The position numbers and the translations under genes are program-made. Below are positions 6,066 through 56,518 of a DNA stretch of 64,000 bases, piece by piece. The DNA is from Agarophyton chilense (taxonomy: Eukaryota > Rhodophyta > Florideophyceae > Gracilariales > Gracilariaceae): positions 248,001 through 312,000 of the forward strand of contig JARGXX010000103.1 of assembly GCA_030374765.1 (NCBI GenBank), in the 5' to 3' direction. Each line of letters begins with the position of its first letter. Within the stretch, counting starts at the first letter, position 1. The notes beneath the pieces were generated by a model. It searched no databases and was not told where the DNA came from. It was given only the letters and a program-made list of their open reading frames with translations.

Positions 6066-6782
6066 TGTAGTATCCGCTCTTTATGTAAGAGCAGGCACCT
6101 GCGACAGAGTTCGGACTGCCGATGTGGTGCTTGAGGCTAGCCGAAAAGGGGTGGTAAAGCTACGACACCAGCGAGCTGAAAGTGGGTTGCGAGGCCAATA
6201 TTCGCCAGCGAGGGTGTACAGTAAACAGAATAATGTGGAAAGGACTTGGTAAATGATCCGGCTCGAGAATTTGTTATAGGCTGACTCTCTATTATAGCCC
6301 CTCCATATCTCTGGTTAAGAAGTCCTTAGCGAGGAAGAGAAGATTCATTATAAATATGTAATCTCCCTTACTTGGAGTAGGGGCTCACCTCTTGTACCTT
6401 ATATACTTTGTACTCAAGGTGGGTGCAAAAATAATGTATAAATAAAACCCAGCCGTCAGCCAGTAAGCCAGAACATTGTGTACGTATGGTCCTTAATAGA
6501 CTTCTAATTATAAATCGTAATAAAACCCGACACATGGACCGCAACTACATGTGCCGTTTCCAATTTGGCATTGTCTTATGAAGGGTCGCAAATGCACGCG
6601 TGCCGTGGCCAGCCACTCGACTGATGCCATCACCGGTTCCATCAATATATCCTTCCTTTTGGAATCCTATGCGGAACGCCACTTCCTATGAAAATATAGA
6701 CTATAACTCTCGTTTATGAGCTCCAGTCACAACTTCGCTCTAAACCAACCCCTCCGTTCTTCCGAAGTAGCAGAATATTACA
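6066..6782 (-). repeat. 3' LTR of element B
   Basis: Starts TGTAGTATCC and ends GAATATTACA on the plus strand, and aligns along its length with the LTRs at 7961, 17947 and 25800. It carries about 50 bp (around 6570-6650) that element A's LTRs lack but the LTR at 25800 shares, so the two B LTRs form their own subfamily. Confidence 0.85.
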
Positions 6783-6953: not shown

Positions 6954-7960
6954 ATGAATCCGAACGACGGGCCGAACCCGTTCCAAGCCTTTTCTGAAGA
7001 TGTGCTTTCTTGGGTTCCGTCATATGCTGCTGGTTGTGCGACGCAGCTTGCTGCTCAACTCTGTCGATACCATTCGTTCCACACACCGTACACGGGATTC
7101 CGATGCGTGTCATCACCACAGCCAACCATGGCTCAGATGTCGAACGTAACCTATGTTTCCTCGGGTAGTGTGAGTCGAGCTGCGTCTGGTTATCCTAAAC
7201 AATGCTATTTTCATCCTGCAGGTTTATATGGACAAAAATCTTCTTGGTAATGTGTAACTGTTCGCAACAAAGGCTCTGGTCTGATTCATTTGCTGTGTTG
7301 TATGACGCGTTCATAAAAAAGTATGTAAATGGTGTGTATTTTTTGACGGCATTCTGGAACATGTGATATAGAGCGATGGTTTAGCGATCCATACTACTTT
7401 TCCAGACAATGTAATTGCGCGTTATTCAACAAAAACAAATTCCGAACCCCGTACACGCTTCATTAAGCAGATACATCACCGTATTCAACGATTCATTATT
7501 ACGGTCATCTTCGGCCAGGATTGAGAACTAGATATGAAGAAAGTCCGTACCAACGGTGAAGGTTACTCGTACATCTAGGTACTCGTCGAAGACGATGTCA
7601 GCGATTGGCGCGGTATAAGTGGCGTACGCAACGCAGCCTTTTGCTTCCGACAACCTCTTCTCCATACGAAGTTCTGCTTTTTAGGTAAGCTTGATATTCC
7701 GTGTTTGGACTATCCCGTTAGGAACGTCGTACCTGATCAAGATTCGTCTATTTCATCCCGTATCAAGTAATTTAAATCCACCGCATCCGGCAGAGCGCGC
7801 GCTGTGGATGCTACATCAGTAAAGAAGAACATTGGGTGGCGTTAGAGAGTCCTTGTAGCTGCCCTTCGGAACTCTCATCGGCGATTTTCAACATTGGATC
7901 CACTTTGGTGAAGGATCCGTTCTCGAGATATTAGACGATGGTTTACAATGAAGATATCTC
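6954..7960 (+). pseudogene. Antisense accessory gene of element B, broken (5' part)
   Basis: Starts at the ATG of MNPNDGPNPFQ, aligned with MDPNAESNPFQ of the element A copy. The shared blocks YHSF-TPYTGFR and PQPT-AQM follow closely. Frameshifts and stops begin after about 7250, but nucleotide similarity to A continues (for example GGTGAAGGTTACTCGTA near 7555) up to 7960, where element A is inserted. The gene lies opposite to B's gag-pol, just inside B's 3' LTR, as in elements A and C. It resumes at 18614. Function unknown. Confidence 0.75.
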
Positions 7961-8627
7961 TGTAGTATCCGCTCTAACGGAGAGAGCAGACACCTGCGAC
8001 AGCGTTCGGAATGCCGATGGGTCGCTTGCGGCGAAAGAAAAGGGGTGGTAGAGCTACAACACCAGCGAGTTGGAAATGGGGTGCAAGGCCACTACTCGGC
8101 AGCGAGGGTGAACAGTGCAACTGTAAAACGTTGATGGAACGTAGGTACGAGACGGCTCGTGAAGTGGTTGGGGGCTGACTATCTATTATAGCTCGTCCGG
8201 ATCTCCGGTTAAGGAATACTAAGCGAGGAACAGAATAGTCATGATGCCCATGTTGTCTCCTTTACTTGGAGTCGGCGCTCACCTCTGGTACACTATATAC
8301 TGTGTGCCAGGGTGAGTGCCCAAATAAATATATATATAATACCCAGTGGTCAGCCACTTAGCCAAACCACAGTATGGGTATGGTCCCTAATGGACGTCTA
8401 GCTACAAAGGGTAGTAAAACCAGACACGTGGATTGCCACTACCTGCACCGTTGCAAGCCACTCCACTCGTGGTACCACGTGTCCCACTAAGACATTCTGC
8501 CTCTAGGAATCCTACGCAGTGTGCCGTTTCATATCACAAGTTTGGTGACATCACTCACTTATGAGTTCAAACCGCGACTTCGCGAAAAACGAACATATCG
8601 GATTCCCCGACATAGTAGAATACTACA
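7961..8627 (-). repeat. 3' LTR of element A
   Basis: 667 bp, same length as the partner at 17947-18613. It has an AT-rich TATA-like run (AAATAAATATATATATAATA, about 8323-8342) that could serve transcription on either strand. On the plus strand it lies upstream of the accessory gene starting at 8795, so this LTR is the natural candidate promoter for that gene (inference). Confidence 0.93.
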
Positions 8628-8640
8628 TACCCCCCTCGTT
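8628..8640 (-). promoter_or_regulatory. Polypurine tract of element A
   Basis: On the minus strand AACGAGGGGGGTA directly abuts the TG of the 3' LTR, the expected place and composition of the plus-strand DNA primer of an LTR retrotransposon. Confidence 0.7.
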
Positions 8641-8794: not shown

Positions 8795-10477
8795 ATGGAT
8801 CCGAATGCCGAGTCCAACCCTTTTCAGCACTCCTCTGAGGATGTGCCTTCTCGGGCTCCATCCAACACTGCTGGTGCTGCATCGCGGCCTACTGCTCAAC
8901 TCGGTCCATACCATTCGTTCCCCACACCGTACACCGGATTCCGGTCGGTACCGATACCTCAGCCAACCGTGGCTCCGATGCCGAACGCGGCTTACGTCGC
9001 ATCTGCGGGTGTGATTCGAGCTCCTTCTCGTCGTGCTCAGCGAAGCTACCCACACCCTGCGGATTTCTATGGACGAGATCCTCTCGACAACGTTGAACTT
9101 TTCGCGCAAGCGCCCTGGTTTGATCCAGTTGCTTTCTGCGATGACGCGTTGATACAACAGTATGTACACGGTGGGTACTTCCCCGACGGTATTCCGGAAC
9201 ACGCGATTTATAGCGACGACTGGGCGAGCCATATTGCTTTGCCAGACAACGCGATTGCGAGATATTCAACGGAATCCTTGTCCGAAGCCCGTACGCGGTT
9301 CACGAAGCTGATTTACCAGCGTCTTCACCGATTCACCAGTACGGTTCTCCTCCCGCAGGACTGGGAACTAGATACCTGAAAAGCCCGTATCGACGGTGAA
9401 GGTTACTCGTATATCGAGACACTCGTTGAAGTCGATGTTAGCGGTTGGCACGGTGTGCGCGGTGTGCGTGATGCAGCTCTCTGCTTTCAGCAACCTCTTC
9501 TCCGTACGGAGTTCCGCTTCCTTCGAAAGCGTGACATTCCCTATTGGGATTATCCCCGTTGGGAACGTCGTACTCGATCACTTTTGGGCTATTTGGTGCC
9601 GTATCAAATGATCAAGATCGACCGTATCCGGCGGAACGCGCGCTTCGGGCGCTACATCGGTATTCCGGAGCATTGGGCGGCGATCGAGAGTCCTCATGGT
9701 TGCCCTGTGGAGCTCCCACCGGCGATCTCTTACATCGGGTCCGCGTTGGTTAACGACCCGTTCTCGGGATATTGGACGGTGGTTTATACCGAGTTTATCG
9801 CCAAGATGGCCGTCTTCCTCCTGTGGGATGCTTATGATACCTTTAGAGTTTGGTACATGTCGCCCATAGCGCGACAGTATGCGAGAGAACTCGATCTTTC
9901 CCTTGTTCTGTGATCCCGTGCGAACCATGCCGACTTCTTCCATCTTGTGGATTTTATCGACAGTGTCGATTGGTCTGCAGTGCCAGCTGATCAATCCGCT
10001 TGCGGAACCCGTGCAAGACACTACGACCATTCTCCTGGACGAACATCAAATGCTAGAGATTTCGTTTGGTACGACCCCTGGACGCGCCAGTTGATCACCT
10101 CCGAGCAGGCTCGCTTTTTTCGGGAGAACCCGCGTGACATGCCACCGAACCAGCTTACCGGATACGTGTACTATGGTACTCCATCCGAGAACGGAGAGGA
10201 CCCGTATGAGGAAGCGCCGGGAGCTGAGGCTGAACTCGATTACGAGAACGAGCCAGAGCTGGCAGGCGTAGCGACTTCCGTCGATCAATCCGCAGCGGCG
10301 GGAGTTGCTCAAGAGTACTGTCATGGGTTTACCCAACAACCGAGTGCATTGACGGTCGAAGATCCAGGTTTGGATACGCTGAGGCAGTTCCTCTTAGACG
10401 CGGGCTTTCCTGTGGACCAAGTTGAGGGTGATCGCGCACAGCTTCTTGCGAACCTGCGTGCTCGCACACCTCTTTGA
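8795..10477 (+). pseudogene. Antisense accessory gene of element A (two in-frame stops)
   Basis: A single frame of 561 codons, opposite to gag-pol, from the ATG of MDPNAESNPFQ to a stop at 10475-10477. It is interrupted only by TGA at 9377-9379 and at 9911-9913. Blocks shared with element C are: RDP then AxAPWF (about 9079-9120); RFT-x2-I-x-YQR-x-HR (about 9298-9330); LRTEFRFLR, RRTRS, YLVPYQ, GRYIGIPEHW, GCPVELPP and AxFLLWDAY (9500-9840); and FVWYDPW (about 10063). The N-terminus is rich in Ser, Pro and Ala, and the region about 10185-10260 is acidic. There is no signal peptide, membrane segment or known domain. The start is supported by the aligned B copy. It converges with pol, leaving about 300 bp between stops. 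Conservation across two element families suggests a selected function, but none can be named. Confidence 0.85.
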
Positions 10478-10778: not shown

Positions 10779-13700
10779 TTAGAAATGGGATGTGCCCATG
10801 AGCCCGACTATCGAGGATTCGATCTCCCTGGGGAGTGGTAATCGCATGCGTCGATGATATCGCACGAGTTGCGAACGGAAGATATGAGCTATAAGTTCCC
10901 ACTTATCCACTTCCGGAGGAAAACCGTACCAACGGACTCGATACAGCAATTCTCTGGTATCTTCATACTCGCCGTATTCACATATGCGATCCATAACATA
11001 TTCCTGGGCGTTTCCCAATGCTTTCGCTGTTGGCGCGAGACTCCTCTTAACAGGTTTGAAATGCCTTACGGCTGACCCAAGCGTCTCTGTGTTAGCAGTC
11101 TCAGCGTCATTCAGCGTTCGCTCGTCGACTAACTGTCGTTCTGCCCGCAGAGGCAGTGTACTCATTCCTTGAGAACCTTTTTTCAGATAAAGAGCCATCC
11201 TGTTCTCCAGGTTCCATAGAAGCGTACTTCTTGCTACTTCTCAATTCCATTCGTGGATGAACTTCCTTCGGTTTATCGGATTCTGACCGCTGTTGGGTGG
11301 ATGATGGTGCTTGCACCACGACAGGAGGCGATACCTCTTCTTCTTCCTGCCCACGAGGGATGGGAGCCGATATCGGCGGAACAGCGAGTGGCGCTTCACC
11401 TGACGGTTCAGCCTGAAGCCGCAACGGTGCGTGTTCGCGTGCACTCGTTTCCAAGTCCCTGGGGCCAAATTCCAAAACATCTTTCCTACTTTCAGGTTCC
11501 ATTTCTGTACTTACGGGTGTGCGCGTGCCACGGGACACATCCCGATGTTTTTGAAGCTGTCCGTGATTGGCGTACGCAACCGCCGGCGGTGGGAGATCAG
11601 GAGCTTTCTTCTCCGCTCGAGTCATTTGTGGCGGTTCACTCTCCCCAGAGTCACTTGGGCTTTTGCCTTGACGTTCCGTCGCACTTGCCTCCTTAGTTCT
11701 ACCAGATACCTGGACTTCCACTTGCGGGTCAGGCGCGACTTCAACGCGATCGCGCGATACACGTTCAATGTCCTCACCTGTCTTGATGACCACTGTGTCT
11801 TCATCAAGGTCCACCACTTTGAAGGGTCCAGCTGCTATCGGCAACATCATATGACGCGATTCTTCCTGTTTGTCAGTTCTTTCGACTCGCACGAAGACGT
11901 GAACTCCTACTCGGATTGCCGGATTTCCTCTTCGCCTTCTGGCGTCATAGTTTCGCGTATAGCGAGCTTGCGTCTTCGATAACTCCTTAGCGGCATCTTC
12001 CGCTCTGGCCTTCAGGTTATTCCTCCATTTCAGATGGTACTTAGCTGGGGTCGGCGCGTCCAATTCTGTCTCGTCGTCGAGCGAAACTGGTAAAGCCGGA
12101 GGGTTACGTGAGAGCACGAGGTCGAACGGTGTCGTCTTTGTAGAGGTATGCACTTGCGTATTGTGCGCGTAGCACAGAGTATCTGTAAACATGTCCCATT
12201 CTCTCGGGTGGTCCGCAATGTAGTGTCGTAGTGCTGATATCAGCGTGCGAGGGAACGCTCCCCCTGACCATCGAATTGCAGATGATAGGTCGTGGTAAAC
12301 ACGTTTGGAATGCCCATAATGCGGCAAACATTCTGAAAGAACTTCGCAACGAATTGCTTCCAATTATCTGATAACAAAACTTCTGGTGGTCCGTATATAA
12401 ATACCCAATGTTTGATAAATGCCTGTGCGATTACGGTTGCGGTTATCCGCTTCAGCAGCACAGTCCGCACTAGCTTCGAGAAGCGGTCGGTGATTCCCAA
12501 CAGGTAGCGATAACCTCGCCTTGAGCGAATCAACTACCCTAGGACGACGATACTGACGTATTGTAAAGGCGCTCTCGCCTGGAATAACGTCATCTGTTTC
12601 CGCTTCCTGTAAGGCTTCACGCGATTCTTTGCACATGTTGTACACAATCTCACTGTAGCATGGCAGTCCATTGCCAAAGTAGGCCAGTAAAAATCTCTTC
12701 TTAGAGTCATGAACAACTTCGTTCCTCCTGGATGACCAGGCAGCCTGCTGTAGTGTGCCAGATGGAGTACTCGACTCTTCAAGACTTGTGGAATCACGAT
12801 TTGATCATGCTTTTCGACATGTCTTAACAGTATTCCTCGTGAATCGAGTGAAAACGGGAGCTCCTCCCCCCCGTTAAGACGAAAGCCTATCGACGCACAA
12901 AACGTATCGGCGTGTTGCTCATTGAGGAGCCCAGTGCACGATATTCGCTCGAGTTGAACTGAAGGGTCAGTGTCTGCTAATGCAAGGAACGGGTCTGCAT
13001 CCAAATAATCATCAAGGGTCTCTTGTTCCCCTTCTTCAAAAGATGGTGAATGGGTCTCCATGTAGAAGCAAGGTATCTCTTCATCGATTTCGCCTTGGGT
13101 TTCGCCAAGTATTTTGAGTCACGATAGCGCGTCAGCTTGGACATTGGCCAATCCCTTCTTATACTTCAATTCGAAACCGAATTCAGAAAGGCGTAAGCGC
13201 CATCGTGTGAGACGACCAGACGGGTCTGTAATGGACAGTAACCATCGTAGAGACGAAGGATCCGTGTTGACGGTAAAACGTTCTCCTTGGAGATACAGTC
13301 GCAATATAGTTACAGCCCAAACGACTGCAAGGCATTCCTTTTCTGAAACTGAATACTTCTTCTGAGCTGCGTTCAGCGATCTTGACCAATAACCAATGGG
13401 TTTGCGTTCACCATCAGGGTGTGTTTGAAAAAGGGCACACCCTGTTTGGTACTCGCTAGAGTCGGTATCCACTGAGTATGGCAGGTTGGGGATGGGCAGC
13501 GCCAAGACTGGGGCTGTAATAATCTTTGTCTTCAGCGTGTCGAACGCTTCCGCTTCAGCTTGTCTGAATTGTTCCAGCTGTACTCGTTGTCCTTTACGCA
13601 GCTTTGCGTTGAGCGGTGCCGCTATATGCGAGTATCGCGGAACGAATCGTCGGTAGACGTTGCACAAGCCGAGGAAAGAACGCAATTGCTTCTGTGTCGA

Positions 13701-15581
13701 CGGAGGTTGTACTTCGCGGAGGGCCGCTGTTAGTGCCTCTTGAATGGCAAGCTGTCCCGGTTTGATCACATGTCCTTAGTACGGGACGGTGCCAGCGAAC
13801 CATTCGCCTTTCTTGAACTTCAACATGATACCTGCGCTCTGTAGTGCTTTGAGGATCTCCTCGACATGCCGTAAATGGCTTTACACATCCTGGGAAAATA
13901 TGATCACATCGTCCAAATAGACTAAACAAGTCTTCCACTTGTATCTTGAGAGAAAGATGTCCAGAGTACGCTGGAAAGTAGCCGGTGCATTCGTCAAGCC
14001 AAAGGCAATCCTTTTGAAACGTTAGAGACCGGCGTGACACGCAAATTCCTCTACAGGCACCTGCCAATAGCCAGAGTTGGCGTCCAACGTGGTGAACACG
14101 TTCGCTTCTCCTAAGCTTTCATTACATTCTTCCATTCGAGGCAACGGGTATGTATCTCGAACTGTAACTGCTTTCAGTTTTCGATAATCGATACAGAATA
14201 GTAAAGAACCATCAGGTTTTGGGACCAGCACCACTGGTTAGGCCCAAGCAGATTGAGCTGCTTCGATTACTCCTTCTTCCAGAATTTGGCTAACATTCTC
14301 CTCCTCGATTTGGCGAGTTCGCGGTCCCGCTCTGTAGGGTGGTTGGGAGATGGGTCGTGACCCTGGGACCAAATCAATGTGGTGTTCCAAAGCGGAGATC
14401 TCTCCTAGTTTTCCACTCCACATGGATTTATACTTCTTCAGCATAGACCTGATCTTCGTTCTGTAGTGTTCCGACACATGTGCTAAGTCTAGCTCATCGG
14501 CCAGGCTCTCTGAATCCTTTGCCGTTTGCAATTGATCTCCAGACGGAGTTTGCAGTTCTTCGTCTGTGTCACCGACATGGGTTAATCCCAATACTTTTGC
14601 AGTAGAAATATGAATACGGACCACCACTGTGGGATGAGACAAAGCTGTTCCAACAACCTGATTCTTCGGTATCTGATAATCGTTATCGGTGAAGTTACTC
14701 ACTAGTATCCAAAAGGGGCTACCAGGATCAACCTGAACAATGCCGTTAGCGACTAGCAATCCAAGGGATTCGTACATCCGAGTATTCGGTTGAACTACCA
14801 CGAGTCCGTGTCATTCTGTTCTTACTTGAACCCAAGTTTGGGTTTGCGCCTTCAGCATGGCACTCTTCGCTACTCGAATCCTCGGCGAGACACGTCCTCG
14901 GGATTTCCCGTATTCCATAGATGGTGGAAGTGGAGGTGCTTCGGGGCAACGACGCATTGGCTTGCGAACAATTCGTACCATTGATCCATCATCTAGTTCC
15001 ACTAGTTTTCTTCGCGGGCGAATGGCTTTGACAAACTTGTCGCAAGAATCACATCCCAGTACCACTGGTGCAGCTAACGTCTTACAGACGATGAAGTCGA
15101 CTAGGACTACAAAGCGTCCCAAACGCACCACGAGTCGAACTGTTCCCAATGTCTTCACAGCATTTTTGTTGGCATCCCGGATGTCCGGTAAAGGACCGTA
15201 TCGAATACGTTCTAAGTCAGCAGGAGCGAGCTCCGATTCCCGTATAAAGTTCGGACCAGCACCTGTGTCCAGGATAGTCAATCGACGAGATAACAGATTC
15301 CTTTCAGAGCCGATGTCGGCATAGACCTTATATTTTCTTTTAGACACTACCATGAGGTAACTTTCCCGTTTTGAGGGACAAGTATAACGTCTCCAAGGAC
15401 GATGTAACTCACAGTCAAACTGTACTCGCTGTCTGTCCGGCGGATTGATTCCGTACGGCGGAAATTTCTGAGGCCTCAAGAGAATCTTGGGCTTCCAAGC
15501 GCAGGAGCAGGGAGGCGAGCTCTCCCTGGTCAGCTCTACGGGATCGACTAGTGCCGAACCCCTAGGGGCTCCCTCACTTAG
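10779..15581 (-). pseudogene. pol: Pol of element A: PR-RT-RNaseH-IN-chromodomain, broken
   Basis: Domains run in order on the minus strand. Protease: LDTGAGPNFI (about 15260). Reverse transcriptase (about 14340-13780): PVVLVPKPDG, GLTNAPATFQR and intact YLDD (about 13907). RNase H and connection (13769-13119): SVDTDSSEYQTG and YSVSEKECLAVVWA. Integrase: zinc finger with H-x3-H-like start and CTTC (about 12700), then core with GPPEVLLSDN and GQGER (12240-12533). The core's first Asp is Val (VSIVVLG, 12546-12548). A Pro/Glu-rich linker follows, then a chromodomain (about 10845-11000) with EYVMDRI, LLYRVRWYGFPPEVDKWEL. Damage: stops at 14811, 14235 and 14022 and others; loss of about six codons in RT before FACHAGL; frame changes near 12245 and 11180. 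The frame is -1 relative to gag. Confidence 0.9.
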
Positions 15582-17731
15582 TTTTCCGGTTGCACCGGCT
15601 TATTCGCCTCAAAGGCGCCTCTTCCTACCGGGGTTCCGGGTTGTAACACTTCAGCATTCTGAGCAACCGGCTTGTCCGTCCGGCGCATTGGTGTCCGAGA
15701 AAACCAACTTTTGGCTTTCCAATACATGCCCGCCGGTACGCGGCTCCTTTCCTCTTCTGAGAGTGCTTCATAATTCGTCATGATACGACTCAGGTCCTTT
15801 GCAGGAAGCGTGCATTCTGCACTCAAATGGTGTTTTCCATAACACCAATAACAGATCAAACCGTCACGACGGTTGGTCAACATAGGTTGTGAACGGAATG
15901 CCGTGCGAGTATCCACTCATCCGAGTTTCCCGTTCTTAAAACCTCCTTGTGGTGGCACCGTGTAGGGACGGTACATAGGGCGACGGCCCTCCATAGCAAC
16001 TAGGGCTTCCTCTTCCTGAGACTCCGAGTGTGGGAGATCCCCTGTAGGTACAGAAGAGTCCGTATAATCCATTAAATGGACCGCCTCTTCATGCGAGTCA
16101 CTCCCTTTGGGTGCCAACGACGAATCTCGTGAGTGCACTGGAGATTCCAGGTGTAGGAGTTTGCTGCGCTGATTAACTCTGGCAAAGATCTTCTCCTTAC
16201 CCATTGAGGTTCCAAAAGTCACTGAACGACGGGGGCTACGACGCGGTCTGGCCGCGTCTCCTTCAGCTTTCGCAAACTGAACTAACTCCAAAAAGGAGAC
16301 TCTTCCATGCTTCTCTCGATATCGAGCTACCAACGACTTGATGCTCGGGTCCAGCCCGTCGATGTACAAGGTAATCTTTTCCTCCTTCGAGTGGAGGTTT
16401 CCACAGCGGACTGAAGCTTTGTTAACCCTTGAGCTGTACTCAGCTTCGCCGTCCTCAGGCTTTTGGGTCACATCTCTTCTGTCCAGGATCGCCTGACGTA
16501 TCGCGTTTGAAGTCGCGTAACTGCGCAGCAAATACTGCACCGCCTCTGGCCATGAGGTAACGCCGCCTTCATCGGCTGTCAATGATCTGCATACAGAACG
16601 ATATTGCTCTAAAGCAAAACCCTTCAGGAAGTGTGGTAAAGACACAAATGCCTGTGGTTCACTCATCTCTAGAGTGTCTGCTTCGGCAACGAATCGAGTG
16701 ACAAACTCGATAACGAGAATGGGTGTTTTCCCATCAAATGTTAAATCATTAAGGCCGATCTTCAATCGTTTGATGTGATCCTTCACCTTCGCGGTTTCGC
16801 GTCCTGAGCGCTTCTTGCCCTTCATCTTCAGACGGTAGTACCTGTAGTTCAGGACCTTCCGATAAAGCGGATTCGTGCACAGGAGCACCTTCAATCCTCT
16901 GTAAGGTGAGCCTTTTTTTCTCATTAACCACGAAGACGTGTTCTTCTTCCGAGATCGGGACCTTCGATGACCATCATCACTGTCGTCGTCATCTGACGTA
17001 TCTGAATCATCAGAATCATCAGTACTGGAACTAAAGCCCTCCGTACTTGACGATTCATCACACGAATCACGTGCGGACTTCGGCTTCTTACGTCGTGACT
17101 TCGACTTCTTCGAACGAGCTTCCTTCAAATGAGCTCCTTCCTCTTCCTGCACGATTGGTTTAGCAGCAGTCTGCGCATAAACTGCCGCCTCCAAGCGTTC
17201 TAAACGAGGGTTGACTCAAGTGAGGACTTCCTCTACAGCCACGGTTAAGCCGGGTAGCGCATCGGGCGTATTCCCGTACCTCTCCAGTAGATGGTTCAAA
17301 TCCTCACGTAGTGTTTCCACTGATGCAGAGACCTGCTTCCCATCGTCTTGACGAACGAGTGCTTGATGCGCACTGTGTAATTGTTCGACATCAGCGATAA
17401 GAGCAGCGATCTCCGATTCCAACGCGACCATGCGCACACGCGAAGCGCTTGACTCAGACTTGAGTCGACGCACTTCCCTGCGCAAATCATCCTCTTCTTG
17501 AGGTCCGACGACCTCAGCGTCAACTACGGCTTCTGTGGTGGGCGTGACTGCCGCTGCCACAGGAGCCGGTACATCCGAGAGATCTCGTTCATCATTCACC
17601 GAGCGTGAGCGCGACATCGCTTGACGATACAGCCGCTCTCTGGCTTCAACAGATGAGGCGAGCCTCGGTTTCGGGGGTGGTCCCGCAGGACCGGGGCGAC
17701 CAGTACTCGACTGGCTTCGGGTCTTCGGCAT
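15578..17731 (-). pseudogene. gag: Gag of element A (two in-frame stops)
   Basis: One frame from the ATG of MPKTRSQSS at 17731 to TAA at 15578, broken by TGA at 17216-17218 and at 15917-15919. The second stop reads TGG (Trp) in the element B copy, so it is a recent G-to-A change. Parts: N-terminal basic/Pro region; coiled coil with ESEIAALIADVEQLHSAHQA (about 17300-17400); basic then Ser/Asp-rich stretch (17150-16970); capsid-like region with NPLYRKVLNYRYYR and SWPEAVQYLLRSYA (16900-16300); and a CCHC zinc knuckle CYWCYGKHHLSAEC (about 15810-15850). The element C gag shares the NPLYRK, WPEAVQYLLRSYA and IDGLD blocks. Confidence 0.88.
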
Positions 17732-17926
17732 CCTATACCAAACCTGAGTCCAGGTGCGAACCAAATATTGTCTTCGACTTCTCGACCACGTGTTCAATCA
17801 CGATGAATTCCGCAATTGCCGGAGGTGGTTCGATAAACAATAACTGTAGTGATGCCACTTCTTCCAAGTATCGATATCGATTCCACGTTCCAGGAACGAG
17901 TTGTGCAGTGCAGCTGACCACAGTGG

Positions 17927-17946: not shown

Positions 17947-18613
17947 TGTAGTATCCGCTCTGACGAAGAGAGCAGACACCTGCGACAGCGTTCGGACTGC
18001 GGATGGGTCGCTTGCGGCGAAAGAAAAGGGTTGGCAGAGCTACAACACCAGCTAGCTGGAAGTGGGGTGTAAGGCCACTACTCGGCAGCGAGGGTGAACA
18101 GTGCAACTGTAAAACGTTGATGGAACGTAGGTACGAGACGGCTCGTGAAGTGGTTGGGGGCTGATTATCTATTATAGCTCGTCCGGATCTCCGGTTAAGG
18201 AATCTTAAGCGAGGAACAGAATAGTCATGATGCCCATGTTGTCTCCTTTACTTGGAGTCGGCGCTCACCTCTGGTGCACTATATACTGTGTGCCAGGGTG
18301 AGTGCCCAAATAAATATATAAATAATACCCAGTGGTGAGCCACTTAGCCAAACCACAGTATGGGTATGGTCCCTAATGGACGTCTAGCTACAAAGGGTAG
18401 TTAAACCAGCCACGTGGATTGCCACTACATGCGCCGTTGCAAGCCACTCCACTCGTGATACCACGTGTCCCACTAAGACATTCTGCCTCTAGGAATCCTA
18501 CGCGGTGTGCCGTTTCATATCACAAGTTTGATGAAATCACTCACTTATGAGTTCCAACCGTGACTTCGCGAAAAACCAACATATCGGATTCCCCGACATA
18601 TTAGAATACTACA
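17947..18613 (-). repeat. 5' LTR of element A
   Basis: 667 bp, TGTAGTATCC to GAATACTACA on the plus strand. It pairs with 7961-8627, differing by scattered substitutions and no net length change. Confidence 0.93.
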
Positions 18614-38440: not shown

Positions 38441-39221
38441 TGTAGTGCAACGCCCCCGGCGATATTCCGGTGTAGGATACTCATAAGTTAATATTGATAC
38501 TCCGGTGGAGGATGCTGTACTTATGAGAGGAAAGTTGTAGGATTTTGGTGCAATGGTAACGCGGTATATTTAGAAGGCATGGATCCCCGCTATAAGGGCT
38601 CCCCATATGAGAAGAACATTAATTAGAAATGTAGTAATAAAATAAGTGGCACAAGACTAGTCTAATTAATTTAATTAATTAGTCTAGTGGTCACAGTAGA
38701 ACAGTACTTGGGCTCCGGCGATCTCGCCTTCGCCATCACCAAGTAAATGGTTATCGTGTATTCGGCTCTAATTGTGACTGCCTTTGCAGGAATACTACTC
38801 CCTTCGGAGCGTATCCGCATTGCCATCGATTCAGTTATACCACCGACATCTCTTAAAGTGATTCTTACTACACCTTGCGCGTTTTCCTTGTTTCTTTTAT
38901 ACTTATGTTTTACTGTGTGTTACAGGTTTATTCTCCGCCCCAGTATTGGGTTGTTTCTTGGTTTCTTTTTATTTCTACTACTCCGTTGGAGTTTCCTTAT
39001 TTATTTATCCCTTTATTTCCCCTGTTCCAAAGGTTATCGGCATTACTATCGTACACTTCATACTCGTTTCTGTCCCCACTTCCGTGGTATATCTTGAAGT
39101 CTCTGTGAAGTTACGCCCACAGCTGGGAGATACGGAAGGCTCAACGCTGAGCTCCCCTAACAAGAAAGCAAGGCTTCGAACACCCTGAGTGTATTTGCCT
39201 CTCGCAGGGTATTGCACTACA
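38441..39221 (+). repeat. 5' LTR of element C
   Basis: 781 bp with perfect 10-bp terminal inverted repeats (TGTAGTGCAA / TTGCACTACA). It contains an AT-rich palindrome around 38655-38692 that is also present in the partner LTR. Confidence 0.95.
38655..38692. repeat. AT-rich palindrome in LTR of element C
   Basis: ACTAGTCTAATTAA and TTAATTAGTCTAGT are inverted around a short AT centre, with one mismatch. It is repeated in the right LTR at about 49973-50010 (ACTAGATTAGTTTAATTAAT there). It may act as a promoter element or cruciform. Confidence 0.75.
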
Positions 39222-44600: not shown

Positions 44601-46683
44601 TGTTCGTGTATGGCCCACCGATACAACTCCTCTCGGGGAACGGCTCAAGATTCGCTGCGAAGTTCTTTCAGAACATGTGCAGAATCCTGGACCAAAGGAA
44701 CTTGTTTGTTATAACAAATCACTCACAGTGTAATGGGCAAGTTGAACAATTTAATCGTACGCTACTCAATGCGCTGAGATCTTATGTCGCGGATAACCCA
44801 ATAAAATGGGATCTATTTACGGATGCTGTCACCTACGCGTAAAATACGCAGGTTCATCGCATAACGAATATCCCGCCGTTGGAGTTAGTACTTTCAATGC
44901 CTCCAGTGGCGTTGGACCGGCAACCCGTTGTGGGAACGTTTACTTTCCCGAAAAACTATCGGGATACCTGGCAAGAGGTTTTGAAACAGCTATTACCGAT
45001 GGCTCGGAAGTCAATGGAGAAAACACAGGCCGCTTATAAGCATAACTTCGATGCGGAGGTCAGAAAACCCTTGCCAAAGGTTAGCGCCGGTGACTACGTC
45101 TTCCTGAGAAAGGAATATTATAATTCTGAACAGGAGCGCCGGCACTAGCTATCGCCGATTGCAGAAGGTCTCTACCGCATTTTCTCCGCGTATAACACGA
45201 CTGTGGTGTTGGAAATAAGTGAACGTCATGAACGAGTATCGCGCTATCGCGTTGTATTAGCACCGAATTCGCATACGGAGCTAGCAGGGAAACCTTAATC
45301 GGAGGTGCAATCAATCCCGCCTGGCGGTCGTCCCACATATGAATCTTGTTCTATCGGATCTCCCATTGGAGTCAGACACGACACCTACTGTCCCTGTGAA
45401 ACCAGGTATTCGTACACGACTGGATTCTCTTTCTAGAGTTATCCCTGATCCTAGGGTATTGACTAACTCTAACCCCAAATCCTCACATAAGGAGGGGGAG
45501 GAGGATGGTCAAATGTCAAGTACCAGTTTCGCTCCGGCGATGACACCCATTGATGGTGATACGTTTCGTTCGATCGGCGACATTACGGACACTACAGTGG
45601 TAGTTTCTCCTGGAAAGGGTAGAGAGCGATGAGCTCACGACACACCGGCGAACCTGGAACGTCCAGTTACAGCTGACCCCACAACTGGGACAATCAGTGC
45701 ACTGGACAATGAAGACCCAGACGTAGATATATCTACTACTACGGACGCTGAAGACCCTGAAGAGTAGGGATAAACAGAAAGGAACTCTGACGAACAGAGG
45801 AACCCACAAAAGTGGAGAGAAGAACAGAATCTACTTCAGAAACACCTTGAAGGGTGACGAACACGGTGCAGTGAGAAGAAGCACAACCCGTATATGCCCG
45901 GACAAACGGTACAGCCTTTAAAACTCTCGACAAGTCGCACGGTACCGTACTGTACTGCACGCGCAGGAAAACATGACACTGTAGTGGACAACGAATCTCA
46001 GCCAGTCAAACGCCCGTGCAACGGCGCGTTTGAGGTTGACCCAATAAGATTCGTTTGCACACGTACACGTGTGAGAGTGACCCAATAAGATTCGTTTGCA
46101 CACGTACACATTTGAGGTTGACCCAATAGGATTGGTTTGCATATGTACAAGTGTGGGCGGAACCGTCGCCCTACCACGGCGCATGCCGTACATCGAGCTT
46201 CACCGTCGGAAAGGTTACCCTAAATGGGGGCCGAGTCAACCCCGCGTTCAACTCGTCGTCTCTCCAACGTTACCGAAAAAATCTTGGGGAACGTACTCTC
46301 AATCCGCGTGAATTTTGCAGACCTTTCAGAAGGTATCGGAAGTTCTTCGCGGACTACTCTAAATCCAAAGTTTGCCTCGCCTCTTCACGACGAGCTGTAG
46401 ACCTCACGATCCATAGAAACTTCCCTAGGAAGCTCGGTTTAACGTTTTAACGAAAAAGAGAACCCCAAGAACGGGACAGCTACAGACTAGAACGCCAAGA
46501 ATTGCGGGAAAAAGAGAAGTCTACCCACAAGAGTTCGTTGTTGATCGACTTATCGAATGCGGTTATGAATGCAATGGAGAGATTCTTTACCGCGTAAGCT
46601 GGTACGGTTAATCCGTCGAGGAAGACACTTGGGAACCCCTAAAACACTTACCCCGCTCGAAGGTAACTGCATATCACCGCAGG
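41620..46683 (+). pseudogene. pol: Pol of element C: PR-RT-RNaseH-IN-chromodomain, broken
   Basis: Protease begins with MVKRNYKVYTDLG and the active site FDTGAGPNFF (about 41699-41728). Reverse transcriptase: STWASPVVLAPK, FTTLDENWGYWQV, RMPFGLTKAPAKFQRA, and YLND (43100-43111) where YLDD is required, so a catalytic Asp is Asn. RNase H: PYSIDTDASSQQ and YSVSEKECLAVVWSLA (43540-43700). Integrase: MDILRP and ITDRFSKIVRT, then LLSGNG where the second Asp is Gly (44636-44638), and NGQVEQFNRTL. The chromodomain (46528-46683) has QEFVVDRLIE, EILYRVSWYG, a stop, then VEEDTWEPLKHL. Many further stops and frame changes occur. The variable linker between integrase and chromodomain includes the repeat at 46029-46155. 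Confidence 0.9.
46029..46155. repeat. Three tandem copies of a 41-43-bp unit
   Basis: Each unit contains GTTGACCCAATAAGATTCG or a close variant followed by TTTGCACACGTACAC. The units start near 46029, 46072 and 46112. They lie in the poorly conserved linker upstream of the chromodomain. Confidence 0.8.
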
Positions 46684-46793
46684 AAAAGAAGCGCACTACC
46701 TCCAGGTATGGAAGGCACAAAAGTGTGTTAACCGAAACCTCGAGAGAGGAGATCTCAAAGGAGAAGATAAAGTAAAAGAAAAAGAATCCTGGA

Positions 46794-47192: not shown

Positions 47193-49677
47193 TTACCCGG
47201 CATCAGTCGTATCCGGAACCGGAACACCCATGGCCTGGAGTTGAGCGCGAAAAGATGCGACTTGGGGAGTAATCTCACCCATGTCAACGCTGACCTCCGC
47301 TGCAGCGGTATCCGCATTAGTCCCTGCGGTATCGGGCGCGTTACCATCAGCCATCAATGGGTCACCCGGTTCAACGGGAGCGATATACTCACCTTCATTA
47401 TCAACTATTGGATCACCCGCACTATACGGTTGGAAGAAGTGGTCGGAAAAGACAAACCCGACGGAATGCCCAGCTGGGACTTTGCGATACAACTCTGGAA
47501 GAGCTTCAGCGTGAGCTGCGCTTGTGAGCACACCCTCCCAGGGGTCAAAGAAGACGAAATATCCAGCTCGTGGGTGTCGACGGCCAGGAGACCTGTCGTA
47601 CGGGAAAGGTCGGCCACTATCTTGTTGATTCTGCCGAACCTCGTCCCAATTGACGTCATCGATGATGTAAAGGATGTTAGTAACCTCATCAACGTTAAGT
47701 TGGAATCCCAATGGGACGGACATAACAATCTATTTCATCCAGGATAGCAGTCACTGCGGGAGATACCATAACGAACATTTATTGTAAGCCTCCCAGAGGA
47801 GAAACGCGGCAACACGCACCGTCCATTCTGAGGCGAAGATAGACCAAATCTCTGTAATCGAGGAACTCGTCAGGAGCGAGAAAGAATATGTCGCCACAGG
47901 CGGAAGCTCCACAAAACACCCTCGAGGGACCTCAACTTGACCCCACCAAGCGGGGAGCGGGATGTAGCGTCCTGTAAGGAATCTCGGATGCATCCGTTCA
48001 ACTTCGACATTCTGATAAGGAATCAGGTACCAGAATCGGGAGCGTGTTCGCCGCTCGAAGCGGATCATGCGGTGGAAACCCTGTTGTGGAAACCGCCTCA
48101 AGTAGCGAAACTCCGCACGGAGGATTGGACGACCCCAACAGAGGTATCTTGTTGAAACGCCTGAAGTGGGACCCTGGGAGGGAGCACTTAATAACTCCAA
48201 CAAGTTCTCTCCATACAGAGCTTCGCCACGATTACGGAAAAAGGCCACGTCGAGAGTGCCCTCCGGTTCAACCGGTACCTCGTTGGGGGATCGGTGGTGA
48301 CGCTGATAAGCGATCCTTGTAGTGAAACGCCAAGGGCGGCGGAAACACACGAAGATGTCCGAGTCTTCCTCGAAGAAGGGTAGCACGGCGACGGAGCCTC
48401 TCCGGAGTGAACACGACTAAGTCGGGGTGTAAGGCCGAGGTTCACCGGCACGCCAAGCGAGGAGAGTGCGGGATGCTAGAAGGGAGCAGACCAGGTATGA
48501 GCTGTATTCCACGGGAGTGGGCAAGTAATAAAGGGGGGACCACCCAGTGGGGGCGATCGGGGGCATGGGCCACGAGAGCCAAAAGAAATATGTAGCAAAC
48601 CCAATACTGGGGCGAGAACACGGCAGTGGTATGAAAGATATACACGCTAACAGCGGTGAGTCTCCTGTTGACGCAGGGTGGATAAGTCTACCGTTAGTAA
48701 CGCGGCTTCACCTCCGTAGAGTGTGGAAGACTCGCGAAAGCGGAAAAAGACTTAGAGCCAAGAACCCTGGTTGGGGAGGTTTACTGAGTGTCAGAGCGAG
48801 ATCGCCCTGGCACTATGTAGTGTAGACTACTGTAGAGAGCTCCCTAACCTAGTGTAATAAAGCTAAATAAATAGAGAAATATCCAGCTATGCTGTGCCAA
48901 CCTGTCCTGGGCCACCCGTGCTACACGTGGGTAAGTCACACCCGAATCGGGGCCACGGCGCACGGCCGCCGGTGCACTTCGCGTACAACGCGTATACACC
49001 TGGCTACGCCAGCCCGCTAGTAGCAGTATTACTCATAGATCTCACAAGTATCGCCCGAGGCGGAAAAACAACCAAGTCCTGGAAAACGGCCCTCACGAGG
49101 GTTGCACTTCAATCCTCGCCAAGAAGGCGCCCGCATCGTCCATTGTTTCATTCCTCCTTCGGAATAGATAGTAAGGGTCCACCGCAATGTGCGCTCTTCA
49201 TTTGAAGGATAATACGACGGTAACGGGAAGGTCCCCGGGTAGCATACCATCATCCGAATATAAGTTGATCAACGTGGAGTTGTTAACCGCCTCAGGATGG
49301 AACCACGGAGCTTTGGCGTATATGTTCGCATCCTGAACAGGATCTCTCGCCATGAAGTGCTCGCGGGAAACCCAACCACTAGGACTGGTAGACCCCCAAT
49401 GGGAAGGACCGGAAGAGTTGCACGCAGAGATATTCGACCCAGACGGTTGGAGAAGCGGGGAAATATTGGAGCCAGTGAAAGCCCACGCTCCACTCGGGTT
49501 GTTACTTCCCGAGGAATGCGGTGCTCGCGGAATGCGGTTGTGATCGTCGAACGGCGGCATCGCTGGATGGTAGTTGGAAAGGACGGAGAAGTTCGAATCG
49601 CTTAAAGCGCTGTCGTCGGATTCAACTTGAAGGAACTCAAATTTGTGAGGACCCACTGTCATGGTTTGAGACGCCAT
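47193..49677 (-). pseudogene. Antisense accessory gene of element C (with probable intron; two stops)
   Basis: Opposite to gag-pol, starting 83 bp inside the right LTR. Exon 1 (49216-49677) begins MASQTMTVGPHKFEF, is Ser/Asn/Pro-rich, and contains ARDPVQDANIYAKAPWFHPE, matching element A. A 799-bp GT-AG segment (48417-49215) follows. Exon 2 (47193-48416) continues with RFTTRIAYQRHHR, LRAEFRYLRR, RFERRTRS, YLIPYQNV, GRYIPLPAWW, GCFVELPP, AAFLLWEAY and then YFVFFDPWEGVLT. Exon 2 is one frame interrupted by TGA and TAG between the LLWEAY and FFDPWE blocks (47724-47753). Overall length without the intron is close to the A copy. Function unknown. Confidence 0.83.
48417..49215 (-). other. Probable intron in the accessory gene of element C
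   Basis: The minus strand reads ACCGTC|GTATTATCC at one end and GACTTAG|TCGTGT at the other, phase 0. Joining the flanks puts the upstream and downstream accessory blocks into one frame. GSVAVLP then aligns with ASHIALP of element A at the same spacing. Element A has no insertion here. The alternative is an inserted element with the 5-bp repeat ACGAC (plus strand 48413-48417 and 49214-49218) as its target duplication, but removing it that way would not restore the frame. Confidence 0.6.
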
Positions 49678-49759: not shown

Positions 49760-50541
49760 TGTAGTGCAACGCCCTCGGCGATATTCCGGTGTCGGATACT
49801 CATAAGTTAATGTTGATACTTCCGTGAGGGATGCTCTTCTTATGAGAAAGAAGTTGTAGGATTTTGGCGCTATGGTAACGTGGTATATTTAGAAGGTAGA
49901 GATCCCCGCTATAATGGCTCCCCACGTGAGAAGAACGTTAATTAGAAATGTAGTAATATAATAAATGGCACTAGATTAGTTTAATTAATTTAATTAATTA
50001 GTCTAGTGGTCACAGTAGAACAGTACTTGGGCTCCGGCGATTTCGCCGTCGCCATCATTAAGTAAATGGGTATCGTTTGTTCGGCTCTAATTGTGACTGC
50101 CTTTACAGGAATATTACTCCCTTCGGAGCGTATCCGCATTTCCAGCGGTTCAGTTATCCCACCGACATTTCTTAAAGAGTGATTATTACTACACCTTGCG
50201 TGTTTTTCATGGTTCTTTTATACTTATATTTTACTGTGTGTTACAGGTTTGTTCTCCGCCCCATGATTGGGTTGTTTCTTGGTTTCTTTTTATTTCTACT
50301 ACTCCGTTGGAGTTTTTCCATTTATTTATCTCTTCACTTCCCCTGTTCCAAAGCGTATCGGCATAAGTATCGTACAATTCAAACTCATTTCTATCTACAC
50401 TACCGTGGTATGTCTTGAAGTGTCTGTGGAGTTACGTCCACGGCTGGGAGATACGGAAGGCTCTACGCTTAGTTTTCCTAAAAAGGAGCAAGGCTTCGAA
50501 CACCTTGAGTGTCTTTTCTCCTGGTGGGGTATTGCACTATA
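49760..50541 (+). repeat. 3' LTR of element C
   Basis: Begins TGTAGTGCAA and ends TTGCACTATA, the last C of the expected CTACA having become T. It is closely similar to 38441-39221 with scattered substitutions and small indels. It lies just upstream of the minus-strand accessory gene and could promote it. Confidence 0.93.
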
Positions 50542-53020: not shown

Positions 53021-54235
53021 TTACAGGAACCTATGCACAATGGGGCAATTCACAATAAACCCGCTACTTCCGTACGGAGAACCTCCAGGGCCTGTCATAT
53101 ATCCGCGTTGCACGAAGCCAAGCACTTGGAACTCTTCAATTAGTCGATCCCGGATACCGTTTTCAACAGAGTATGGCGTCCATTCGCCGACATTAAGATC
53201 CCATGCGGGGGAGTAATCAGTGGCAACTGTTGGAATACCACCCAAAACATTCAATGGACTACCCTCTTCGAAAAGTGCCGAAAAGAAACCCTGACGGCTT
53301 GGATGGACTGTCTCGTTCTGAGGAGCACCTGGTGCCAAATCCCGGTTTGTGAAACCGTTAGTTACGGCAAATAATCTTTCAACAGGGGAGAAAGCAGAAT
53401 CGTCCGTCCCAACTAGCAGTGCCTCAAGACGAGGGGCGTGGGTAGTGTCTTCCATAGCGGCCGGGAGCTCACTCGAAGCATCCATGGAGAGGTAGAGAAC
53501 CGGCTTGGAAAAACTGAAACCGGGAGTCAACTTGACAGTGACGGTCGCCTCTCCGGGACAAATTGCCACCACTTTGCTGTGAATGTATTCATATGCTTCT
53601 GTGTTGTTCTCCGGGATACCCTCGCAGTACTCATCCAGTGCATCTGAGTTTATTCCTGAAGCAACTATTGGGGCATTGTAAAGACGGCTTCCGGCGTTCA
53701 AGATGCGTACGTATGGAGAGTATTGTTCGTCACCTACTTGCGGAGGGCCAAATTCCACTGGAGGGAATGGTGCTGAATCTGGTCCTGGCTCAAGGATTCG
53801 AACAGGAGAAAAGTCAACTTTTCCTGTGCGGTTCACCAGTATACCGGATGGTGAAAGATCGGCAGTTGCGCCAGACTCAGGAGTGACGTATTCGAGTTTG
53901 GATGCATGGTTAAGTCCGAGAGCAGCGGCGTTAGCCGGATCTGTGGTGTCGGTTAGAATGTAGTAGTGCGTGGTATTATCATAATATCTTCCTTTGTAAA
54001 GTGGAATCGTGATTGTACCCTCATCAAAATCAATGACACCAGACTTGAGAAGCTGAACCGGACCTATAAGTCGTGGATCGACTTGAGAAGGGGCAGGTCC
54101 GAAGTACGTCAAAGGAACATCGGATCCGATTGATGGTGGTGCCGGCTCGACATCATCGTCGGGGCGTTCTGTTTGGGCAAATGCCAATGAAGCACACACG
54201 ATAAGCACAAATAGGCGGATCGTAAGCGGAGTCAT
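53021..54235 (-). CDS. Secreted protein of unknown function (DUF7482-like)
   Basis: Complete, intronless, 404 residues from the ATG at 54235. This start is preferred over one 45 bp upstream because it gives a clean signal peptide (MTPLTIRLFVLIVCASLAFA, then QTERPDD). The mature part has GRYYDNTTHYYILTDTTDPA, ALGLNHASKLEY, KVDFSPVRIL, FPPVEFGPPQVGDEQYSP, the T-P-G-F-S-F-S-K-P block, YLSMDASSELPAAMEDTTHA, PSRQGFFSALFEEGSPLNVL and YSPAWDLNVGEWT. This block order recalls a family of secreted bacterial and fungal proteins that I remember as DUF7482; biochemical role unknown. At least four N-glycosylation sequons (DNTT, NRTG, NNTE, NETV) and two pairs of Cys agree with an extracellular or wall location. 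No membrane anchor is seen. Confidence 0.88.
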   Translation of the reverse strand: MTPLTIRLFVLIVCASLAFAQTERPDDDVEPAPPSIGSDVPLTYFGPAPSQVDPRLIGPVQLLKSGVIDFDEGTITIPLYKGRYYDNTTHYYILTDTTDPANAAALGLNHASKLEYVTPESGATADLSPSGILVNRTGKVDFSPVRILEPGPDSAPFPPVEFGPPQVGDEQYSPYVRILNAGSRLYNAPIVASGINSDALDEYCEGIPENNTEAYEYIHSKVVAICPGEATVTVKLTPGFSFSKPVLYLSMDASSELPAAMEDTTHAPRLEALLVGTDDSAFSPVERLFAVTNGFTNRDLAPGAPQNETVHPSRQGFFSALFEEGSPLNVLGGIPTVATDYSPAWDLNVGEWTPYSVENGIRDRLIEEFQVLGFVQRGYMTGPGGSPYGSSGFIVNCPIVHRFL

Positions 54236-56436
54236 TGTATAACGGAGTTGAAGAAACGATGCTCCTCCGACTGTACACACGTTGTCGAGTCACCTGGCAG
54301 AGGAGGAAACGACTTTTTATAGTGGCTACGCTCATGGTACAAGGCATACAGACAGAAGGGTAGAAACTCTTGGAACTCCAGCTCATCCGTAAAAGAAAAG
54401 AAGATGTTATAGTATGAAGTCCACAGAGAAGGCTGAGGACCAGCGATGAACGAGTACATGCTCAAGAGGTCATGTAGAACGGGACATTTTGGGAACAAGG
54501 TTTAATGAGATGGTTCGGTTTTGACTGTTGAAGAAAACATGTGCGATCAAGATCGTATATCAACAATTACACAGTCTCGAAAAATAATCGACGTATGTTC
54601 GAGCCATTAGTCAGTTATATTTAAGGCGTAGATAGTGGACTGGGCCAAAGATATCGAGAGAGCATTGGTGTTTCACACTACTCGTTTTGAGTTAAAATTT
54701 ATCTGTACGTTTGTGAAGGATGGGCGGGGATGTTTGCTAATGCTCAGCCCCCCCTCAGTACAAGATTCCGAAAACCTAGGTAGTTGTTCTATGATATCTT
54801 TCGATCTGCGAAACGATGATTGGTGGCATAGTTAACAACACAGGCGGCTCGTCAAAGATTCTTTTTTTCTCGATGTTGTGCTCTCGGAACTGGTCGAAAC
54901 TAAATGGTCCGTTCATTATCTTGGGAATGTATTTCGGCGAGAAATTGGTTTTCGCGATCAAGATTGTGGCTTGCTTACAGGTCTCGTCTCCTACAGTATT
55001 GGTTTAGTGGATACCATTATTACCCCCTACATGCCTAATAATACGTTTTACTCTTTTCACAGTATATTCTGTTCTGCTGATGCCATTGGGCGGGCTTTTC
55101 AAGTTCAGCCTTTTTGCGCCTTTACTACAAAATACAGACAAAAGGGTTCAGTCTACTTTGTTTTGAGCAGCTTGCTGGGCAATACAGGAAGCAGGAGTTA
55201 TCGTTTTACGTGAAGGAGAAAGATTACGATGGCAGTCCAAAGCACGATATCGGCACGATGCCCAGCAAAGGGGCGATACCTGATCTAGGGCTTAAATAGG
55301 CCCGAAACAGAGGTTTGTAAAAACCCCATTTCTTTAACCTTACGTTTAATAGTTTGCGCAAACGTTTTTCTTTTAGATAAATTCAGAACCGACACGATAC
55401 TTCCATAGAGACAACGTTTCTGGCATTTCCTTTCTTCCATAAAGTATTGAAATCAATTAAACGATGAAGGTTGTTGTACAAAGCTAAAATATTTCAGGAG
55501 ATCCAGTTGTCTCTATTGGCGTTATTAAGTCTATGAAAACAATTAAAATGCCTTCACATTTTCCTCTTCCTCGCAAGTCAGCGACCTCTGTCGCGAACCT
55601 GCACCGCGAACGGCGACGATGCGCCTGCGCTTCCGTACTCTTCTCCCTTGGATTGCGCTTTTGTGGTACTTTGCTTGAAGTGTTTGTGGCAAGCGCAGTG
55701 CGGCAACCTGCAAAGGTTGCTGAGAGGATCGCGTTGTGACTCAAGATTTAGATCATATTTTGATCTCAGCATGATTCTTCGACAGAACAACCCATACGTT
55801 TGATCTTCAGCCACTTCTCTGTTTTCTCTTTGTCTGGCGGTAGCTGCTGACTCAGCAGTGCTGACTGACAGTGGCTGCTGACTCAGCAAGGCTGGCTGGC
55901 AGTGGCTGCTGATTCAGCAGGGCAGACTCAGCAGCCACCGCCAGACAAAGAGAAAAAGAGAAGCGCCTGAAGGTCAAACGGATGGAACAGCAGTGCTGAG
56001 TATCTGCAGGCGAGTGGGTGGTCGACGTTTGACGAAATCCTAGCTTGATGTAAGCTACTGAGGATGGTACAATCTTGCAAAGCGGTTTGAGGCAAGGGTT
56101 CAGGGCTTCCTTGGTATCCGTTGCAGGACTTTCCTCTGCGGACCAGAAGAAACATGTTCGAAAAGATTTTTACTCGTGTCTGAAGATGTGAGTTCTCCTA
56201 GCTAGTTCAGCATTTTGGGTCCCATTGGGCTTCTCGCCCGAGACAACCCTCTCTCGATTCTGAAGCAGGGTTAGCAAAGATACATACACGTTTCTGGTAT
56301 TTCGCTGGATGAATCAAACAAACAATCTTCTAAACGACTCTTCGCGACGATATCGTATATGGGTCAAACAACATCCGACTCCGCAAAACTTTTATATATA
56401 ATTTTATGTAATCCTCACTTTTGCTAGCAAGAAGCA
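54236..56436. other. intergenic, with a 193-bp foldback
   Basis: No supported gene. Open frames such as 54878-55213 (plus) and 55578-55889 (minus) lack recognisable domains. The notable structure is the inverted repeat at 55792-55984, described separately. Confidence 0.5.
55792..55984. repeat. Inverted repeat (foldback) with about 65-bp arms
   Basis: The left arm (from CCATACGTTTGATCTTCAGC through TTTTCTCTTTGTCTGGCGGT to GCTGCTGACTC) is the reverse complement of the right arm (GACTCAGCAGCCACCGCCAG through AAAGAGAAAAAGAGAAG to CTGAAGGTCAAACGGATGG) with a few mismatches. The centre holds repeated CTGCTGACTCAGCAG-type palindromes. It could be a miniature foldback element or the source of a long hairpin RNA. 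Confidence 0.85.
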
Positions 56437-56518
56437 GATGATATGGCAGAGCGGTCTAATGCGTGTGACTAGAAATCACATCCTTTCGAGGGCCCAGGTT
56501 CGAATCCTGGTATCATCG
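56437..56518 (+). tRNA. trnS-AGA: tRNA-Ser (anticodon AGA)
   Basis: 82 nt. The acceptor stem GATGATA pairs perfectly with TATCATC, followed by discriminator G (Ser-type). The anticodon arm is TGTGA-CTAGAAA-TCACA with anticodon AGA. There is a long variable arm (CCTTTCGAGGG) and a T-arm CCAGG-TTCGAAT-CCTGG. The internal promoter boxes TGGCAGAGCGG and GGTTCGAATCC are good. No intron and no encoded CCA. It decodes UCU serine codons in cytosolic translation. Confidence 0.95.

Follow-up and report, generated by a model that had tools for sequence, protein, structure and literature searches.

The antisense gene of element A

The window analysed here, a stretch of 64,000 nucleotides from the red alga Agarophyton chilense, contains a damaged element of probable chromovirus type, element A, with a gene (aORF) on the strand opposite to gag-pol. 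The parts of the element, in window coordinates, are as follows.

7961..8627, minus strand: 3′ LTR, just upstream of the aORF; 29 of the 30 A-family loci, counting A, have an LTR match
8628..8638, minus strand: purine-rich tract seen in the sequence, adjoining the 3′ LTR, putatively PPT-like
8795..10477, plus strand: aORF, from the ATG at 8795 to the end of its terminal stop at 10477; 560 codons plus stop, two internal stops
10782..11240, minus strand: end of pol with the putative chromodomain, convergent with the aORF; 29 of the 30 A loci, counting A, have it in the same place
11110..17797, minus strand: gag-pol, broken, in several open segments
17947..18613, minus strand: 5′ LTR

The aORF starts about 170 bases from the inner edge of the 3′ LTR and converges with pol, about 300 bases separating the ends of the two frames. 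The pol of A matches RNase H and the integrase zinc-binding region, with RNase H preceding integrase as in chromoviruses; the Pfam Chromo match at its end (E 2.7e-4) scores 21.2 bits against a cut-off of 25.1. The two LTRs differ by 28 mismatches in 667 bases. TATA-like stretches occur on the antisense strand of the LTR. One of them, a TATATA near 8329, is shared by 21 of 30 copies; it can be read as TATA from either strand and is at most a hint of an antisense promoter.

The original prediction placed the gene between the chromodomain and the 3′ LTR and described its frame as largely open. The coordinates proved exact, and the frame has two internal stops where about 26 would be expected by chance (3/64 × 560). 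Of 30 copies, A alone carries either of these two stops; a different stop codon occurs at the first site in one further copy. The translated gene is 86% identical over 560 aa to P0001, an uninterrupted A relative. The further claim that the gene is less damaged than pol did not hold: the aORF has 2 breaks in 560 codons and pol 7 in about 2,340 (counted from open segments, so that some may be natural frame boundaries), which makes pol no worse.

Neighbouring elements in the window

Two other elements, B and C, carry a relative of the gene, as had been predicted; it lies on the plus strand in B and on the minus strand in C.

6066..6782, minus strand: 3′ LTR of element B
6954..7952 (approximate), plus strand: antisense gene of element B, which is frameshifted and truncated by A; 48-57% identical to P0001 in three pieces
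38441..39221, plus strand: 5′ LTR of element C, ends read by eye
46528..46725, plus strand: chromodomain region of element C
47193..49677, minus strand: antisense gene of element C, in three open pieces, opposite to the plus-strand pol
49760..50541, plus strand: 3′ LTR of element C, ends read by eye

A and B form a nested insertion (6066-26515) in which A sits within the antisense gene of the older element B. The target-site duplication at the A/B junction is imperfect, and about 660 bases of the B gene are apparently missing on the other side of A, judged by a weak 48-base match. The C gene is interrupted by about 780 extra bases (at about 48320-49102); the antisense protein of a further family, D (see below), aligns on either side of them with no residues missing.

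The LTRs of A and B are related (77% identity over 496 bases and 65% over 175), and those of A and C give no match at E ≤ 1e-3. The antisense proteins of A and C are nevertheless homologous: P0001 and the C protein are 34% identical over 293 aa (E 3e-43). This combination of related proteins and unrelated LTRs was part of the original prediction and is borne out.

Elsewhere in the window, two adjacent open frames on the plus strand (58697-62667; 765 and 559 aa) strongly match the membrane and ATPase parts of ABC transporters, and are probably, judging by these matches, host transporter genes beside the element-rich part. A frame of 419 aa on the minus strand (53021-54280) matches DUF7482 (E 4e-8). 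A tRNA gene on the plus strand (56437-56518) is the sole Rfam match above gathering score in the window.

Copies and families in the genome

The host genome searched comprises 79.8 Mb in 135 contigs. It has at least 150 A-type matches to the middle piece of the A gene (the best 150 of 1,428 candidates), all at least 86% identical to it. Frames of at least 600 codons without a stop are found in 17 of the 150 matches listed (L011 and L019 were checked). A search with a piece of C gave, among 150 matches listed, 9 of C type and 141 at about 47-52% identity. Forty-one of the latter were examined: 34 belong to family D, 96.6-97.7% identical to one of its loci, L044, and seven to a divergent family E. 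Frames of at least 600 codons without a stop are kept by 56 of the 150 matches listed in this search, 24 of the 56 having been checked. Family D is larger and younger than the A family. With A-type and D/E matches in such numbers, other copies in related elements are abundant.

The four closest database proteins are from Agarophyton chilense itself. Their identity (78-90%) is near the spread within the genome, where other copies are 86-94% identical to the A middle piece. An annotated relative of 290 residues is found in Gracilariopsis chorda. P0007, another relative, shares 51% identity with the protein of L011, and further relatives are 33-41% identical to P0007.

One E-family locus, L057, has an antisense gene open for 388 codons with its tail cut short, and a stretch nearby resembles, by eye, the A-family LTR. 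Compared with broken E copies it gave a dN/dS of 0.30-0.36 in five of eight comparisons and 0.83-1.06 in the other three.

Position and orientation

The placement of the gene is nearly invariant. The A set was chosen as the 30 loci, A among them, that best match the A middle piece, a choice that biases identity there upward. In this set, 29 loci have the LTR match upstream of the aORF, and 29 have the chromodomain piece downstream of it on the opposite strand. The chromodomain lies on the strand opposite to the aORF in 19 of the 21 D/E loci that are long enough to show it (L040-L060), and was seen in one more among the 20 shorter loci (L061-L080).

Reverse transcriptase (RT) matches, the best 150 of 3,134 candidates, were also paired with 141 of the 150 listed aORF matches (the nine C-type ones omitted). 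Sixty-eight of these RT matches have a listed aORF within 9 kb. The aORF is downstream and on the opposite strand in 66 of the 68 and on the same strand in two, and the distance from RT to aORF is 4.9-5.4 kb in 59. The remaining 82 have no aORF within 9 kb among the matches listed, which is explicable since both lists hold the best 150 only.

Selection on the antisense frame

In 30 A copies, the ratio of nonsynonymous to synonymous changes (N/S), relative to neutral, is 1.03 for singletons (406N:152S), 0.69 for variants found in two copies and 0.50 for those in three or more (47N:36S); singletons and shared variants differ at p 0.0018. Two shifted frames of the same copies served as controls, as did the LTR treated as if it were coding: singletons stand at 0.95-1.05 in the shifted frames and at 0.94 in the LTR, and variants in three or more copies at 0.97-1.44 and 1.50, respectively.

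Family D was tested with 34 of the 41 D/E loci, the seven divergent ones being left out. Twenty of the 34 (L061-L080) were picked for open frames, and this choice lowers the number of stops in the set. The N/S values are 0.82 for singletons, 0.93 for two-copy variants and 0.38 for variants in three or more copies (25N:27S), the last falling to 0.23 in the core of the protein. Singletons compared with all shared variants (two or more copies) do not differ significantly over the whole gene (p 0.19) and do so in the core (p 0.03). The shifted frames gave 1.53 and 1.85 for variants in three or more copies.

Private variants thus look like decay after insertion and transmitted variants look filtered, which argues that the protein mattered to the copies that left descendants. 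That selection persists from copy to copy suggests a product that favours the copy making it, or its lineage. The stretch from the first ATG to the main ATG shows no constraint (few sites), and translation therefore probably starts at the main ATG. In the A copies, the end of pol with the chromodomain gives 0.77 (16N:8S; p 0.08) where the aORF gives 0.50; on these small numbers, the aORF is constrained no less than that part of pol.

In comparisons between families, pS is 0.65-0.90, so that synonymous sites approach saturation, and pN is 0.29-0.50. Where it could be computed, dN/dS is 0.16-0.52, well below the value near 1 that had been named as evidence against a conserved function.

Descent with pol

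The pol region from RT to integrase is 65% identical between D and C (782 aa) and 58% between D and A (668 aa); between A and C, RT-RNase H is 55% and gag 49% identical. The antisense proteins are 51% identical between C and D (middle piece), 34% between A and D and 34-38% between A and C. The order of divergence among A, C and D is the same for pol as for the antisense gene, which has changed faster. The shared order at a faster rate favours a long association of the two over recent recombination in these three.

B fits less well. Much of its gag is 55-60% identical to that of A, the C-terminal part of its integrase 44% and its antisense gene 48-57%, all at or above the values for A and C. 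In RT-RNase H, however, B and A are 47% identical, below the 55% of A and C, whereas the antisense gene places A nearer to B than to C. Identities with B are lowered by its bad decay, and recombination may have occurred in its history. Of the two readings weighed in the original prediction, long conservation or recent recombination, the first is therefore favoured for A, C and D, with B a misfit in RT-RNase H.

The protein

The original prediction recognised no known domain in the protein. Searches of Pfam, NCBIfam, PHROGs, PDB sequences and Foldseek gave no convincing match either, and no DNA-binding domain reached a cut-off. An AlphaFold model of P0007, made with 18 sequences, has a core (residues 68-435), tails of low confidence and a C-terminal helical piece. 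Modelled alone, the core is mostly helical with a few short strands (pLDDT 82, pTM 0.82). Taken as a whole, the protein has a core of some 370 aa, modelled with confidence and mostly helical; in most members an acidic linker and then the C-terminal helical piece come after it.

Ish1 is related to SAP-like DNA-binding motifs. The C-terminal piece of one member, among seven such pieces searched alone, resembles Ish1 at E 0.0036, below the cut-off; in whole proteins the match appears in one of 18 members, at E 0.092. Net charge is close to zero in the core (−6 to +10). Sixteen members have a linker, and in 12 of them it is acidic (net −9 to −16), the exceptions being P0015 (−4), P0008 (+1), P0009 (−1) and P0010 (0). 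Basic clusters are few (one in four of seven members).

An extra reading frame of Env type was considered and ruled out by the antisense orientation and by the lack of transmembrane-like hydropathy: none of seven members has a long hydrophobic helix, the highest 19-residue hydropathy being 1.01-1.45.

What the gene may do

The open copies, the fixed antisense position and the purifying selection, found in several chromovirus families, support the aORF as a real, old and selectively maintained protein gene common to these families, in keeping with the conservation first proposed for it. It has probably been kept since before families A, B, C, D and E split.

Our preferred reading, to which we give a probability of roughly 0.45, is that a lineage of red algal chromoviruses has here an accessory protein gene, placed antisense and kept by selection, whose antisense promoter lies in the 3′ LTR or close to it and whose soluble product aids its own element, most likely in the nucleus. 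A promoter so placed would drive an antisense message, and the message would yield a soluble protein acting for the element from which it came. By analogy with what has been proposed for the antisense ORFs of the plant elements Grande and Retand, the protein might bind DNA or chromatin and regulate transcription or integration. As it matches nothing known, these elements would seem to depend on a helper protein not described before. We give less credit to a bolder form of this reading: that the proteins are a new family, possibly with a new, mostly helical fold, and that in their gene red algal chromoviruses have an essential third gene that defines the lineage. The product, a dedicated nuclear factor encoded on the antisense strand, would act on chromatin so that its own element escapes silencing or selects insertion sites, and would have evolved independently of plant TRP28 and PMD and of fungal brtn.

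Antisense ORFs are commonly open opposite conserved coding sequence, and the gene could in principle mirror coding on the sense strand, be a passenger captured by the element or be open by chance. In six intact copies, however, each frame of the strand opposite to it contains 9-28 stops (in one intact A-family copy, L011, each of the other five frames has 9-28); shared variants track the aORF frame, interfamily dN/dS is low and the gene diverges alongside pol among A, C and D. As far as present data go these observations refute an artefact, which we consider exceedingly improbable. The convergent layout at the 3′ end invites another thought, also proposed for plant elements in the available text of PMC7264820, that antisense RNA is the main agent, forming dsRNA with the genomic RNA at its 3′ end and so tuning copy number, with the protein secondary. 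Yet it is in the aORF frame, and in neither of the two shifted ones, that shared variants show an excess of synonymous changes, and dN/dS between families is low. Such constraint follows the meaning of codons, a pattern that a role of the RNA alone would not produce, and we find this explanation improbable.

A protein role of another kind deserves somewhat more credit, even if we think it unlikely: the product could be a component of the particle or life cycle (a Gag partner, an RNA chaperone or an integration co-factor), made from the antisense message with no regulatory role. A constraint not weaker than that at the chromodomain end of pol and a mostly helical protein with disordered tails would suit such a component, but an antisense message is an odd route to a stoichiometric part of the particle, and no capsid or Gag fold was matched, which is weak evidence. 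Finally, the protein could shield its element from host silencing or exclude a competitor element. Conservation in several families with many open copies agrees with this and it fits a lineage carrying chromodomains, but nothing in the sequence or the fold points to it, and we would not rate it above antisense RNA as the main agent. The accessory gene with a most likely nuclear product remains the reading that we prefer.

Comparison with known systems

The present carriers are chromodomain elements of a red alga, whereas Grande and RIRE2 are not known to be chromoviruses. Extra antisense ORFs between pol and the 3′ LTR (aORF-3R) have been described in Grande (gene23), RIRE2, Retand, PvRetro13 and Boty (PMC7264820; PMC11963269, as far as their available text goes). 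Their function is unknown; the Grande protein is nuclear and its gene has its own promoter, according to the part of PMC7264820 available. The red algal gene has the same position and orientation as the aORF-3R of plant Ty3/gypsy elements such as Grande gene23 and RIRE2, and is likewise conserved like other proteins of its element; the comparison with gene23 is by its published description.

The antisense ORFs of Retand encode Transposase_28 (TRP28; PF04195), extend from pol to the 3′ LTR, are lineage-wide (97% of clusters) and have been proposed to bind DNA (PMC11963269, available part). They share with the red algal aORF the antisense strand and the placement between pol and the 3′ LTR; PF04195 itself gave no match in 18 members at E ≤ 10, and the lone weak match in the genome (E 0.05) lies at a site that is not among the listed aORF loci. 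ORFs with a plant mobile domain (PMD; PF10536) are carried by Ogre, and the MAIN/MAIL1 host proteins act in silencing, as given in the accessible portions of PMC6317226 and PMC5418596. The likeness here is that of an extra domain of unknown role borne by an element. PF10536 had no match in the 18 members at E ≤ 10 and none in the genome, though the same search of the genome gave no signal in the control either.

HBZ and the red algal aORF are both antisense; HBZ carries a bZIP, for which the present proteins have no match in Pfam, and the LTR promoter is putative here. HBZ and other retroviral antisense genes are under 3′ LTR promoters (PMC10186651, in the text available). The brtn gene, an additional antisense gene of Boty-like gypsy elements of the fungus Botrytis (PMC8365987 and PMC7264820, each seen in part), is again an antisense addition to gypsy elements, set apart from the aORF as fungal. 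Algal DNA transposons, those of red algae included, have an accessory gene opposite the transposase (PMC12477816, in its available part); these are DNA transposons with recognisable domains, and the present proteins match neither domain in Pfam.

No earlier report of this gene was found in the literature searched, most subscription journals lying outside its scope. The kind of gene is known in plants and fungi; its novelty seems to lie in the lineage that carries it, in the protein family and in the evidence of selection. The selection is measurable in several families, one of them young (34 copies about 97% identical to one of them), and there are dozens of open frames in a genome of 80 Mb, small enough for the transcription, location and partners of such a protein to be tested directly. 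Antisense retrotransposon genes with no known function have long been described in plants and fungi. The red algal gene appears unrelated to them, which suggests more than one gain of an antisense gene at the 3′ end of such elements.
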